From positions 186,001-250,000 of the forward strand of contig NZ_JAJNAL010000002.1 of NCBI RefSeq assembly GCF_022271405.1: a stretch of DNA of 64,000 nucleotides, read 5' to 3'. The translations under genes and the position numbers were made by a program. This document shows positions 6,775 through 52,828 of this stretch, piece by piece. Positions within the stretch are counted from its first letter, which is position 1. Every line of letters begins with the position of its first letter. The notes under the pieces were generated by a model. The model saw only the letters and a program-made list of their open reading frames with translations. It did no database searches and was not told the origin of the DNA. Origin of the DNA: Rhodopseudomonas infernalis. Lineage in GTDB: Bacteria > Pseudomonadota > Alphaproteobacteria > Rhizobiales > Xanthobacteraceae.

Positions 6775-7266
6775 CTACTCGATCACGACGAGCGGTTCGC
6801 CGAATTCGACGGGCTGGCCGTCTTCGACCAGGATCTGCGTGACCGTGCCGGCCCGCGGCGACGGGATCTGATTCATCGTCTTCATGGCTTCGACGATGAA
6901 CAGCGTCTCGCCGGCGGACACGCGCGAGCCGACTTCGATGAACGGCTTGGCGCCGGGCTCGGGCGCCCAATACACGGTGCCGACCATCGGCGAGGGCACG
7001 ACGCCCGGATGTTTGGCGAAGTCGACCGCAGAGGCCTCGAGCGGAGCGATCGCGGCGACGGCGCCTGGGGCGTAGCTCGCCGGGACAGCCGCGGCGATGC
7101 TGACATTGCGGGCGACGCGCACCCGCAGACCGGCTCGCTCGATCTCGATTTCCGTCAGATTGGTTTCGTCGAGCAGCAGCGCGAGTTCGCGGATCAGCGT
7201 GCTGTCTTCGGTTGCCGCGGCTTCTTTCGGCTTGGCGGCGGTCTTGGTGTCAGGCTGGCGGGCCAT
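6775..7266 (-). CDS. accB: Acetyl-CoA carboxylase, biotin carboxyl carrier protein
   Basis: 163-aa biotin carboxyl carrier subunit. The C-terminal biotinyl domain (about residues 86-163) carries biotin-accepting Lys129 in [10 protein letters not shown]. The N-terminal helix ([23 protein letters not shown]) is the conserved BCCP segment, joined by an Ala/Pro-rich flexible linker. The start MARQPD was chosen because upstream in-frame sequence has no BCCP similarity and runs into the aroQ coding region. It lies 38 bases downstream of aroQ on the same strand, the usual alphaproteobacterial aroQ-accB-accC order. Confidence 0.95.
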
Positions 7267-7304
7267 GTTTGGATCCAGATGGCTTGAGTGAACGGGGCGC
7301 GGGG

Positions 7305-7760
7305 TCAGGCCTTGGCGACGGCGCCGATTTTTGCGGCAAGCCCGGTGATGGCCAGCCGATAGCCGTCGATGCCGAAGCCACACAGGCTGGCAAAGGCGGC
7401 CTTCGCGATGAAGGAGTGGTGACGAAAGCTTTCGCGCGCAAAAACGTTGGAAACATGGACTTCCACCGTCGGAATTTGCACACCGACCAGCGCATCGTGC
7501 AGCGCCACCGAGGTGTGGGTGTAGCCGCCGGCGTTGAGCACGATGCCGACCGCCTGGTCGGCACGCGCCTGATGGATCCAGTCGATCAATTCGCCTTCGT
7601 GATTGGATTGCCGGCAGACGGCCGTGAAGCCGAGGCTGGCAGCGGTTTCAGTGCACAGCTTTTCGACGTCGGCCAAGGTGGCGTGGCCATAGATCTCCGG
7701 CTCGCGGGTCCCGAGCAAATTCAGGTTCGGACCATTGAGCACGTAAATCGGTTGAGGCAT
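7305..7760 (-). CDS. aroQ: Type II 3-dehydroquinate dehydratase
   Basis: 151-aa dodecameric-type dehydroquinase of the shikimate pathway, converting 3-dehydroquinate to 3-dehydroshikimate. Diagnostic motifs are [18 protein letters not shown] at the N-terminus (with the catalytic Arg and Tyr of the lid region), [12 protein letters not shown] in the substrate pocket and [17 protein letters not shown] with the catalytic His. Length and motifs are complete. It heads the aroQ-accB-accC unit; the 270 bases upstream hold no gene and should contain its promoter. Confidence 0.96.
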
Positions 7761-8030
7761 CCGAAAATCCGGCAATGTCAGCGAGGTTCCGGTCTGGCGG
7801 CCGGTCAAAATCCGGCTCTGCAGAAGCCGGTTTCCCGGGCGCAATTCACTTGATTGCGCGCGTTATAGGTAACCTCAACGCTCAGGGGAAGCCTCAACGC
7901 GTTTCCATGCCGCATGAATCGCCTGATGCTTTGGACGAGGACAGGCCGGCAAGGCGGTATAATTGCTCGCGAACCTTTCGCAATGAGTGCTGGCATCTGG
8001 CTTTATGGAGGTTGTGCACAAGGGTTGCGC

Positions 8031-49286: not shown

Positions 49287-51248
49287 ATGAAACGACGTGA
49301 CTTTCTGCTCGGAGCTGCAGCGCTGGGCCTTGGGGGGCCGATCCTCGCCAAGGCGGCGGTGTCCTCGCTGCATGCCCAGCAGGCCGCGCCGCAGGGCGCC
49401 AAGATCGCCAAGGTGGCGATCTTTCCGGCCATCGGCTTCTCCCGCGTCGGCAATGCCGATGACTGGTTTCTCGCTCCCGAAGTGCCTGGCCTGCTCGACG
49501 AGCCGGACGGCGGCTTTAAGGATTCGCGGGGCCGCATCAAGAAGCAGGTCCAGCGCTTCCGTCTGTTCGGCTACGACGACCAGGGCCGCGTCGTGCGCGA
49601 GATCGATGCCGCGCAGGCCAAGTGGACCGTGCACGCCGCCAACACCAAGGCGACCTGGTATGGCTTCGTCAACGCACTCGATCGCGGCGCCAGCGCGCCC
49701 GGCGTGCCGAACCCGCAGCGCAACGCCTTCATCCCGCTCGACAAGCGCGAACAGATGCTGTGCATCAATCCCGGCGTGGTCGCGATTTCGGGCGCCTCCG
49801 TCAACGGCGCGGGCGGCGACGACGCCTATAAACTCAAGGGCCGGTTCTGGCAGACGCTCGACGTCTCGCTCGGCCATCTGCGCACCGACGACAAGGGGCG
49901 GCTGCTGGTGTTCGCCGCCGACGGCGTGTCGCGCTCGTCGCTGCCGCAAAATCCGGTGCGCGACTTTACGAACAATGACGGCTGGCACGACGATTGGGCC
50001 GACGGCTGGGTCAAGGCCAGCGTCACGATCGACGGCCAGACCGTCGACGCCGAGCCGGCGTGGGTGGTGTGCTGCGGGCCGAAATTCGCGCCGCAGCTCG
50101 AGCCGATCGTCACGCTGTACGATGCGGCGCGCGAGGCGATGATCGACCTCGGCCAGCTGAAGGCGCCGGCCGACAAGGTCTCGTTCCGCCGCGACGTGTT
50201 GCCGATCCTGCGCCGCGCCGGCACCATGCAGTGGGTCGCGGCCGCGTCGTTCCTCGGCGCAGCCTGGCACGACGTCGGCGATCTGTCCGATCCGGCGATC
50301 ATCGAAACGCTGTCGAAACCCACCGCGGAAACCAAGGCCGCGCGAAAGAAGGTGTTCGACATCTTCCGCCGGCCGGGCGGCGAAGACACCCGGGCTTACG
50401 CGGTGCCGATCATGCTCGGCGATGGGGTCAACTACCCGGACAGCGCGCACTCTTGGCTGGCGTTGACGCACTCGCAATATCGCGTGCTGGAGCTGTGGGC
50501 CGACGGCAAGTTAGAGGCGGACTACACCAACGCGGCGGCCGATGCGGTGAAGACGCTCGACGATCTGCCGATCGAGCTGCGGCCTGAGGCGATGACGCGC
50601 GCTGCGCTCGATGCCTGCTCGGGCGGCGCTTTCCATCCCGGCGTCGAGATCACTTGGCCGATCCGTCACAAGGCGCTGTATCGCGGCCCGAACGAAACCA
50701 AGCTGCCGTTCCGTATCGCGCTGTCCAACCGCAAGACGCTCAACCAGGATCTGGGCCTGCAGCTCAACGCGGACAACGTGTTCGCCGGCAACCCGGCGAA
50801 GCCGGACCAGGGCGCGCCGATCGGTCCGCAGGCGCCCGGCGATCTGACGCGCTGGATGGGCGTGCCGTGGCAGGGTGATGCGTTCAGCTGCCAGGCCGTG
50901 CTCACCGCGAGCGGTTTCCCGACGCCGGTGTGGTGGCCGGCGCTGCTGCCGGTCGATGTGCTGCCCGAGGCGTTCTACAAGCAGATGATGCGCACAGACC
51001 TCAGCGAGGAAGAGCGCCTGCGGTTCTACCACACGCGCGTGCCGTGGGCGCGGGGCGCGGCCGGCATCGGCCTGCATGTCGAAGCCGGCTACACCGACGG
51101 CCTGCGCCGCATGATCGAGTTGTGGACCCGCATGGGCGTGGTGGTGAAGCGTCCCGGCCCGAAGGGACTGGCGGGGGTGCCGGACCAGGTGTTCGTCGAG
51201 GTGCAGCGTGGCTCGATGGATATCGTCGAGCCGATCCCGTCGCGCTAA
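49287..51248 (+). CDS. LodA/GoxA-like CTQ-dependent amino-acid oxidase, Tat-exported, 653 aa
   Basis: Member of the LodA family, whose characterised members oxidise the epsilon-amine of L-lysine (LodA) or glycine (GoxA), producing the oxo acid, ammonia and H2O2 with a self-derived cysteine tryptophylquinone (CTQ). Here Cys535 in GDAFSCQAV with Asp531 four residues before it, and Trp549/550 in PVWWPALLPVDVLP are the likely CTQ precursors; the Asp at minus four agrees with Asp512/Cys516 of LodA. The N-terminus MKRRDFLLGAAALGLGG is a Tat signal, so the folded holoenzyme is probably exported. Length is shorter than LodA (about 726). Followed after six bases by its LodB-like gene. Substrate unknown. 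Confidence 0.85.
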   Translation: MKRRDFLLGAAALGLGGPILAKAAVSSLHAQQAAPQGAKIAKVAIFPAIGFSRVGNADDWFLAPEVPGLLDEPDGGFKDSRGRIKKQVQRFRLFGYDDQGRVVREIDAAQAKWTVHAANTKATWYGFVNALDRGASAPGVPNPQRNAFIPLDKREQMLCINPGVVAISGASVNGAGGDDAYKLKGRFWQTLDVSLGHLRTDDKGRLLVFAADGVSRSSLPQNPVRDFTNNDGWHDDWADGWVKASVTIDGQTVDAEPAWVVCCGPKFAPQLEPIVTLYDAAREAMIDLGQLKAPADKVSFRRDVLPILRRAGTMQWVAAASFLGAAWHDVGDLSDPAIIETLSKPTAETKAARKKVFDIFRRPGGEDTRAYAVPIMLGDGVNYPDSAHSWLALTHSQYRVLELWADGKLEADYTNAAADAVKTLDDLPIELRPEAMTRAALDACSGGAFHPGVEITWPIRHKALYRGPNETKLPFRIALSNRKTLNQDLGLQLNADNVFAGNPAKPDQGAPIGPQAPGDLTRWMGVPWQGDAFSCQAVLTASGFPTPVWWPALLPVDVLPEAFYKQMMRTDLSEEERLRFYHTRVPWARGAAGIGLHVEAGYTDGLRRMIELWTRMGVVVKRPGPKGLAGVPDQVFVEVQRGSMDIVEPIPSR

Positions 51249-51254
51249 CCGCTG

Positions 51255-52358
51255 ATGGATCGTATCGCCGTGATCGGTGGCGGGGTGGCGGGACTATCCG
51301 CCGCCCGCCGGTTGATGCTGGCCGGACACCAGCCGATCCTGATCAGTCCCGATCCCGCCGTGCCTAACCGCGGAGAGACGCTGTCGCCGAAGGCGCTGAC
51401 GCTGCTGGAAGCGCTGCAATGGGGACATCTGCTCGACGCCGACAGCGCGCTGCCGGGCGAGGGGCGGTTCTCGGTCTGGGGTGACGCGACGCTGCGCAAG
51501 GCGCCCGATCAGGAGGGCCTCGGCTATCATCTCGACCGCGTTCAATTCGAGCGGCTGATGCGAACCGCGCTGCTCGCTGACAACATCGAGCGGATCAGCA
51601 GCACGGTCACCGCGATGGAGCATCTGCCTGACGGCGTCGGCCTGACGCTTGCCGACCGAGCCGTGATCACGGCCGCGGCCGTCATCGATTGCACCGGGCG
51701 GGCGGCGCTGTCGTCCGGAGCCGCGGCCGAGCGGCGGCGGCTCGATCGACTGATCGCAGCGTGGCGCGTTCTCGACCTGCCGGACGACGCCGACACCGCG
51801 GCGGCGACCCTGGTCGAAGCGGTCGAGCTCGGCTGGTGGTACATGTCCCCGCTGCCCGGCCGTCGCATGATGCTCGGACTGTTCACCGACACCGATCTGC
51901 TACCCACCGGCGTTGCGCAGGACGGCCCGCGCTGGGTCGGTCTCGCATCCGGGACCCACGCGATCGCGCCGCGGCTGCAGAGCCTCGGTCTCGATTCCGT
52001 TGCGGCGGATGCGGCGCCGGCGATCGCGCCGGCGGCGTCGGTTGCCGTCAGGCGCCTGATCGAAGGCCGCATCGTGCGCGCTGGCGACGCCGCCGCTGCG
52101 CTCGATCCGGTCGGCGCAAACGGCCTCGCCACAGCGCTGTGGAGCGGCCTGCACGCCGCCGCTGCGGCGCTGGCCCTGGCCAAAGGGGAGGCGGATGCCG
52201 GCATGGCCTACGAGCGCGATTACTTGCAGGGCGTCACCCATCAGCTTGCGACCCAGCAGGCGATGTATGCGTCCGAACCCCGCTTCGCCAAGGCGCCGTT
52301 CTGGCGCCGGCGCCAGATCGAGCCATCTGCATCCGACCAACAGGAGAAAACCGCATGA
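51255..52358 (+). CDS. LodB-like FAD-dependent maturation protein, 367 aa
   Basis: Flavoprotein related to LodB and tryptophan halogenase-type monooxygenases: GxGxxG motif in VIGGGVAGLSAARRL at the N-terminus, ETLSPKALTLLEAL near residue 40, IDCTGRAAL and GRIVRAGDAAAALDPVGANGLATALW (second FAD motif, GD). LodB is required to build the CTQ cofactor of LodA (established in Marinomonas). It starts six bases after the LodA-like gene and its stop overlaps the next gene by ATGA. No signal peptide, as expected for cytoplasmic maturation before Tat export. Confidence 0.86.
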   Translation: MDRIAVIGGGVAGLSAARRLMLAGHQPILISPDPAVPNRGETLSPKALTLLEALQWGHLLDADSALPGEGRFSVWGDATLRKAPDQEGLGYHLDRVQFERLMRTALLADNIERISSTVTAMEHLPDGVGLTLADRAVITAAAVIDCTGRAALSSGAAAERRRLDRLIAAWRVLDLPDDADTAAATLVEAVELGWWYMSPLPGRRMMLGLFTDTDLLPTGVAQDGPRWVGLASGTHAIAPRLQSLGLDSVAADAAPAIAPAASVAVRRLIEGRIVRAGDAAAALDPVGANGLATALWSGLHAAAAALALAKGEADAGMAYERDYLQGVTHQLATQQAMYASEPRFAKAPFWRRRQIEPSASDQQEKTA

Positions 52359-52828
52359 ACCGTCCGCTCCACGCGCTGCTACTCGCCGCCGTCTTCGCCA
52401 CAGCAATGCCGGTCGCCGCCTCGGCTGAAAGCGCCGTGAAGATCATCGCGCCGACCGACAAGACCATCACGCCGAGCGGCACCTGGAGCATCGGCGCGCG
52501 CGCCGGTGACTTCGTGTTCATCGGCGGCATGCGCGGCACCGATCGCGTCACCGGCAAGATGGTCGACGGCGACGAAGCGCGCGTGCGCCGGATGTTCGAC
52601 AACATGCTGGCCGCCGCCGAAGCCGCCGGCGCCACCAAGGCCGACGCGGTGCGGCTCACCGTGTTCGTCACCGACGTCGCTAAATATCGCCCGCTGGTCA
52701 ACAAGGTGCAGAAGGATATCTGGGGCGATGGCCCATACCCGCCGCGCACCGTGCTGCAGGTCCCGGCGCTCGACCAGGGCGACATCGCCGAGATCGACGG
52801 CACCTTCTACGCGCCGGTGAAGAAGTAG
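52355..52828 (+). CDS. RidA/YjgF-family protein with signal peptide, 157 aa
   Basis: RidA (Rid7C/UK114) fold: FVFIGGMRGTDRVTGKMV, ARVRRMFDNMLAAAEAAGAT, VFVTDVAKYRPLVN, and PPRTVLQVPALDQGDIAEID with the conserved Arg that binds the substrate carboxylate. RidA enzymes hydrolyse imines/enamines such as 2-aminoacrylate. Unusual point: a clear cleavable signal peptide (LLLAAVFATAMPVAASAES), whereas RidA is normally cytoplasmic. AGGAG nine bases before the ATG. Overlaps lodB by four bases and so belongs to the same operon. Confidence 0.88.
   Translation: MNRPLHALLLAAVFATAMPVAASAESAVKIIAPTDKTITPSGTWSIGARAGDFVFIGGMRGTDRVTGKMVDGDEARVRRMFDNMLAAAEAAGATKADAVRLTVFVTDVAKYRPLVNKVQKDIWGDGPYPPRTVLQVPALDQGDIAEIDGTFYAPVKK

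Follow-up and report, generated by a model that had tools for sequence, protein, structure and literature searches.

Analysis of a 64,000-nucleotide stretch of the Rhodopseudomonas infernalis genome (contig NZ_JAJNAL010000002.1, positions 186,001 to 250,000; hereafter the window) identified a three-gene gox operon, in which genes for a quinoprotein oxidase of the GoxA type and a GoxB-like flavoprotein are followed by a gene for a Rid-family protein that carries a signal peptide. The Rid protein, predicted to be exported, probably clears imines. The fuller reading that we favor, with somewhat less than even confidence, is that the goxA-goxB operon has been extended by an exported Rid that hydrolyzes reactive C=N by-products outside the cytoplasm. 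The gene order, signal sequences, protein families, conserved residues, and recurrence of the arrangement in two clades of the GoxA tree were observed directly. The features of the operon are as follows.

49287..51248, plus strand: goxA-like gene, oxidase of the cysteine tryptophylquinone (CTQ) family and glycine-oxidase type, 653 amino acids (NF038173, LodA_N, LodA_C, and PDB sequence search)
49287..49379, plus strand: twin-arginine signal at the N terminus of the oxidase (KRRDFLLG), roughly 31 residues with an approximate end (from the sequence)
51255..52358, plus strand: goxB-like gene, maturase-like flavoprotein dependent on flavin adenine dinucleotide (FAD), 367 amino acids, without signal peptide (best NCBIfam model GoxB)
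52355..52828, plus strand: Rid-family gene, product predicted to be exported, 157 amino acids (PF01042, 3LME, and the ratio of nonsynonymous to synonymous substitution rates [dN/dS])
52355..52426, plus strand: Sec-type signal peptide on the Rid, 24 residues with an ASA site (heuristic and dN/dS)

The three genes were confirmed on the plus strand at these positions, and the tight coupling reported in a preliminary description of the locus was also borne out: the goxB-like gene starts 6 nucleotides past the goxA-like stop, and the start of the Rid gene overlaps the goxB-like stop (ATGA). The trio is beyond chance, as seen from the constraint on the mature Rid protein in 12 Rhodopseudomonas sequences (the window and 11 relatives) and from the repetition of the gene order in other genera. 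The preliminary description had also proposed a LodA-like oxidase with a signal for twin-arginine translocation (Tat), a cytoplasmic LodB-like flavoprotein, and a Rid with a signal peptide; these assignments stand apart from the family of the oxidase. Its LodA_N and LodA_C domains were recovered by the Pfam scan; the protein scores 869.8 bits against the CTQ glycine oxidase model GoxA (NF038173), above the equivalog cut-off of 750, and GoxA structures rank first in the PDB sequence search. Lysine 6-oxidase identity was rejected with the LodA model (NF038172, 172.1 bits, below the cut-off of 600). By these model scores, the oxidase is a predicted member of the GoxA rather than the LodA family.

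A scan for GoxA relatives used one genome per species and took the best 80 of 212; locus L154, whose contig ends inside goxA, was left out, and the remaining 79 loci together with the window locus (L025) and L067 gave 81 aligned GoxA rows. The closest named loci among the best 80 are from Rhodopseudomonas. Residues C535, W549, W550, H450, H597, F227, and D531 are invariant in 81/81 rows; these include the residues expected to form the CTQ cofactor (C535, W549, and W550), for which the Cys-Trp cross-link is predicted. The cofactor Cys and Trp are described as present in all LodA-like proteins (PMC4417212, in the text available). The N terminus of the oxidase, MKRRDFLLGAAALGLGG, is a twin-arginine signal, and the motif RRx[FLIVM][LIVMFA] occurs near the N terminus in 80 of the 81 rows. 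The sole row without the twin arginine is the GoxA relative of Zwartia panacis (L140), which has KRDFLA instead. Tat signals of group II (GoxA) are already published: groups IIA and IIB of the LodA-like proteins are described as carrying the twin-arginine motif (PMC4417212), and Marinomonas supernatants are reported to show glycine oxidase activity, with a GoxA that bears a Tat signal (PMC3948610), as far as the text of both sources was available. The oxidase also matches the PHROG family phrog_30760 (295 bits), and LodA-like proteins have therefore been filed among phage proteins. Across the 12 Rhodopseudomonas sequences, goxA has a dN/dS of 0.160.

The substrate may differ from glycine. The window clade (clade A) shares about 50% identity with other GoxA proteins, and its active site differs at one position. 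Five PlGoxA residues, Phe316, His583, Asp678, Tyr766, and His767, are taken here to line the active site, with the residue register drawn from the PDB sequence search alignment. Four of the five are retained in the window oxidase, and the positions matching Phe316, His583, Asp678, and His767 are identical in 81/81 rows, while the equivalent of Tyr766 is Leu596. Position 596 carries Tyr in 57 rows, Leu in 23 (including all 21 of clade A), and His in 1. An oxidase of this clade acting on another compound, with the Rid handling the imine or enamine of that product, would fit the substitution, and no characterized enzyme of the clade was found in the literature, of which parts were available. We nevertheless consider this explanation improbable; the glycine-oxidase equivalog cut-off is passed, the other active-site residues are kept throughout, and a second group of GoxA proteins that is also accompanied by Rid (clade B) keeps Tyr in 7/7 rows.

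The flavoprotein gene lies directly behind the goxA-like gene, as do those of GoxB/LodB-like maturases. GoxB (NF038174) is the best model for its product at 256.6 bits, yet this is below the cut-off of 400, and scores against QhpG (156.5 of 240) and LodB (139.4 of 400) also fall short. The protein matches FAD-protein families in Pfam, has a dinucleotide-binding motif (GGGVAGL) at its start, and lacks a signal peptide. It is the least constrained member of the trio (dN/dS 0.293).

The third protein belongs to PF01042 (54.5 bits, above the cut-off of 27.3). Its N terminus, MNRPLHALLLAAVFATAMPVAASA-E, has the form of a Sec-type signal and includes an ASA site. It is nearly identical to a solved Rhodopseudomonas homologue, PDB 3LME ("possible translation initiation inhibitor"), presumably a protein of R. 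palustris, which aligns to residues 27 to 155 and so begins just past the signal peptide. The genome encodes nine Rid genes, and none of the other eight products has a signal peptide. Signal peptides were called with a purpose-written heuristic on the sequence, so that export is predicted; an earlier form gave a false flag on the paralogue L013, and the final form, which requires 15 or more residues ahead of the domain, flags 0/8 paralogues. Constraint in the operon is strongest on the mature Rid, with a dN/dS of 0.048 versus 0.410 in the signal and linker region.

The RidA site is described from TdcF as Tyr17, Ser30, Asn88, Arg105, and Glu120 (PMC5979572, in the text available). In our alignments, Rid proteins of the window type keep the Asn, Arg, and Glu, and the catalytic Arg (R131) and Glu are conserved in 12/12 aligned gox-linked Rids, from which imine hydrolase activity is predicted. 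This conservation speaks against a rival explanation in which the exported Rid is not a pathway enzyme and instead serves GoxA as a structural partner or stabilizer, either a subunit or a holdase active under the peroxide generated by the oxidase. A Rid protein is cited as a non-catalytic subunit of the periplasmic L-amino acid oxidase (LAAO) complex of Chlamydomonas (PMC5053998, in the part available), and the very strong constraint would suit a protein with binding surfaces. Most GoxA loci, however, lack a Rid, and the window-type Rid also stands alone, and we regard a partner role as unlikely.

The arrangement is not an artifact of one strain, a possibility that the preliminary description had raised; the trio recurs across the genus and in other genera. 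LodA_N was found in 12 of the 61 relatives searched, all within the 16 genomes of the genus. The window-type Rid has the same distribution, present in those 12 genomes and absent from the remaining 4, and each of the 12 (the window and 11 others) has it behind goxB. In the wider scan, a same-strand Rid directly follows goxB in 19 of the 79 loci, and in 21 of the 81 rows when the window and L067 are included. The heuristic finds a signal peptide in 20 of these 21 gox-linked Rids; for L088 and L089, the flag depends on a TTG start. The sole exception is L087, from Bradyrhizobium sp. Leo170, where the Rid that follows goxB is truncated (L087:6445-6684) and only its C-terminal half was found. The carriers are Rhodopseudomonas, Methylobacterium, Bradyrhizobium, an Afipia metagenome-assembled genome, Devosia, Roseibium, Lamprobacter (Chromatiaceae), isolate BAL199, and Thalassobaculum, plus L067; one of the carriers is a gammaproteobacterium. 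The Rid of L129 lies upstream on the other strand without a signal peptide and was excluded from the count.

On the GoxA tree, the Rid carriers fall into two groups (15/21 clade A rows and 6/7 clade B rows). Rid presence requires 4 changes on this tree versus 18.9 in shuffled data, with 0/500 shuffles as low, a clustering that near-copies aid. All open reading frames (ORFs) of at least 75 residues within 3.5 kb were clustered, and among families present in at least four genera, only the two Rid families are consistently found downstream on the same strand; the remaining clusters of this spread are on the opposite strand or in mixed positions. Among the latter is a cluster spanning five loci, four of them downstream on the opposite strand, whose L141 member (L141:10414-10824), downstream of goxB on that strand, is a weak globin match (PF01152, 27.6 bits, cut-off 21). 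A further exported Rid is encoded divergently from the gene of a GoxA relative on L022, a 27.7-kb IMG/VR contig filed as viral, where a weak tyrosine-recombinase match lies nearby (39.5 bits versus a cut-off of 220). Among LodA-family loci outside GoxA, a Rid was found in only 1 of 22 regions (L258), divergent and without a signal peptide; the 22 include L074 and L075.

Clade B Rids are 21 to 29% identical to the window Rid and are separate from it in the free tree. A tree forcing the clade A and clade B Rid rows alone together is rejected (p-AU, from the approximately unbiased test, 0.00087), while one grouping the Rids of A, B, L157, and L022 is compatible with the data (p = 0.53). Independent recruitment of the two gox-linked Rid types is likely rather than established.

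Several observations weigh against the Rid as a dedicated imine hydrolase of the gox operon. The signature of the RidA subfamily is not found, with Trp for Tyr17 and Gly for Ser30 in the window-type Rid, and the window protein scores 53 bits against TIGR00004, under the cut-off of 106.25. Within the genus, the same co-occurrence would result if the operon were gained or lost as a single block. In 60 of the 79 scan loci, no Rid lies behind goxB; the contig of L096 ends 44 bases past the goxB frame and could not show one. Exported Rids also occur away from gox genes. A gox-linked Rid profile matched 94/289 class-wide genomes, and 13 of these Rid regions were examined, picked for a strong score or an early N-terminal match. 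Six (L229 and L231-L235) encode a flagged exported Rid and no gox genes; another Rid (L173/L236) looks exported by eye but is unflagged by the heuristic, and that of L237 has a weak flag only. Neighbors were scanned as ten ORFs from six of the Rid regions. Those of L236 are a histidine kinase and an ABC-transporter ATPase; L229 has a GCS2 ligase and L233 a C1 peptidase, and three ORFs gave no match. In two alphaproteobacterial genomes (L231 and L232), the exported Rid genes adjoin phosphofructokinase genes. Three family genomes that lack LodA_N likewise carry window-type Rids as stand-alone genes, with a signal peptide visible by eye in L262, L263, and the two-domain Rid of L264, and not clear in the third L264 copy; in the tree, these stand-alone proteins are sister to the gox-linked ones. 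The L264 genes (L264:5974-6906 and 7062-7778, genome G036) encode a fused two-domain window-type Rid with a signal peptide and an adjoining third Rid, near a gene for a caspase domain (Peptidase_C14).

The exported Rids without gox genes refute the confinement of such proteins to oxidase loci. The preliminary term "self-contained" is too strong for a system that most GoxA loci encode without such a Rid and whose exported Rids also exist in the absence of GoxA. The varied neighborhoods of the exported Rids and the sister position of the stand-alone forms would suit a general extracytoplasmic Rid that is merely located in the operon and acts on a substrate unrelated to GoxA. The same place behind goxB is taken in two GoxA clades, by Rid types with no more than 21 to 29% identity to that of the window, and an exported Rid lies divergent from goxA on L022, which argues against such an arrangement and leaves it, in our estimation, rather unlikely. 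Six GoxA genomes without a linked Rid yielded no clear case of an exported Rid, of one type or the other, elsewhere among the part of the matches examined; L209 and L227 gave unsure signal flags, and G102 has no Rid at an E value of 1e-6.

In the favored reading of imine clearance outside the cytoplasm, GoxB would help build the cysteine tryptophylquinone of GoxA in the cytoplasm, and the folded GoxA would exit via Tat. In its extracytoplasmic location, GoxA would then oxidize glycine, or a closely related small amino compound, with H2O2, ammonia, and glyoxylate (or the corresponding aldehyde) as products. The Rid would exit via Sec into the compartment of GoxA and hydrolyze the imino acid that escapes from it, or imines formed from glyoxylate with ammonia or amines. 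Predicted export places oxidase and Rid on the same side of the membrane, consistent with imine control in that compartment. We infer the cofactor, substrate, localization, and Rid step, and the last is the weakest link. CTQ enzymes are expected to work like the amine oxidases with a topaquinone (TPQ) cofactor. In the TPQ enzymes, the product Schiff base is described as being hydrolyzed on the cofactor, with release of the aldehyde and later of the nitrogen as ammonium (PMC3382800, in the part available). Because quinoprotein amine oxidases are expected to release aldehyde, free imine release from GoxA, which the preliminary description had assumed, is by analogy doubtful, and the Rid substrate would therefore be leaked iminoacetate or imines of glyoxylate with ammonia or amines. 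Rid proteins are reported to hydrolyze imines from L-amino acid oxidase in vitro, a case of flavin chemistry (PMC4433059, in the text available). A stronger proposal, that GoxA of these clades differs from typical quinoprotein amine oxidases and frees an imino acid or a transiminated amine adduct outside the cytoplasm and that two exported Rids were independently recruited against it, seems quite unlikely to us.

Genes for a SufBD-core protein and a SufS-like class V aminotransferase are located upstream of the trio, and downstream lie a TfoX_N gene and a GGDEF gene on the other strand. These neighbors are named solely on a Pfam or NCBIfam match because long ORFs are often spurious in G+C-rich loci such as this one, and no link was found between them and the trio. 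A promoter scan of the operon found none. The terminator scan gave 3 terminator-like sites versus 2.0 in shuffles, none 3' of the Rid gene, and no inverted repeat of at least 12 was found behind the operon.

Rid proteins have been studied chiefly as damage-control enzymes within cells and organelles, and the L-amino acid oxidase of Chlamydomonas is a flavin enzyme. In the chitin pathway, a RidA-family protein is put among cytoplasmic steps (PMC9537276, in the part available). The gox operon of Marinomonas mediterranea (group II) shares with the window a GoxA with a Tat signal, the cofactor Cys and Trp, and an adjoining goxB-like gene (PMC3948610 and PMC4417212); no Rid gene is described there in the available text and none is present at the Marinomonas loci L117 and L119, and the window clade differs in the Leu at the Tyr766 equivalent. 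The periplasmic LAO1 and LAO2/RIDA of Chlamydomonas are described as an extracytoplasmic amino acid oxidase with a neighboring Rid gene whose product is in the same compartment (PMC10805672, in part), but LAO1 is a eukaryotic L-amino acid oxidase with neither a quinone cofactor nor a maturase, unlike the window operon. The lao-cccA-ridA operon of Gluconacetobacter diazotrophicus likewise joins a bacterial amino acid oxidase with a Tat signal to ridA; it differs in its flavin-type LAAO and cytochrome c, and the available text of the source says nothing on RidA export (PMC5053998). The deposit of 3LME provides the structure of a nearly identical mature Rid; no account of its gene context was found. 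The extracytoplasmic oxidase-RidA idea is thus already in print for flavin-type oxidases, which qualifies the preliminary view that the combination was undescribed; for the quinoprotein form, the literature search, which left subscription journals mostly outside, found among the matches listed no description of a RidA paired with a glycine oxidase or LodA-type quinoprotein.

Collectively, imine control beyond the cytoplasm is suggested by the pairing, at two places in the GoxA tree, of a CTQ-family oxidase predicted to be exported with a signal-bearing Rid under very strong selection. The operon makes it testable whether quinoprotein oxidases release aldehydes only, and the near-identical solved Rid structure (3LME) together with a culturable genus makes such a test practical. 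If true, the stronger proposal of imine escape from GoxA would give the flavin oxidase-RidA pair a quinoprotein equivalent outside the cytoplasm.

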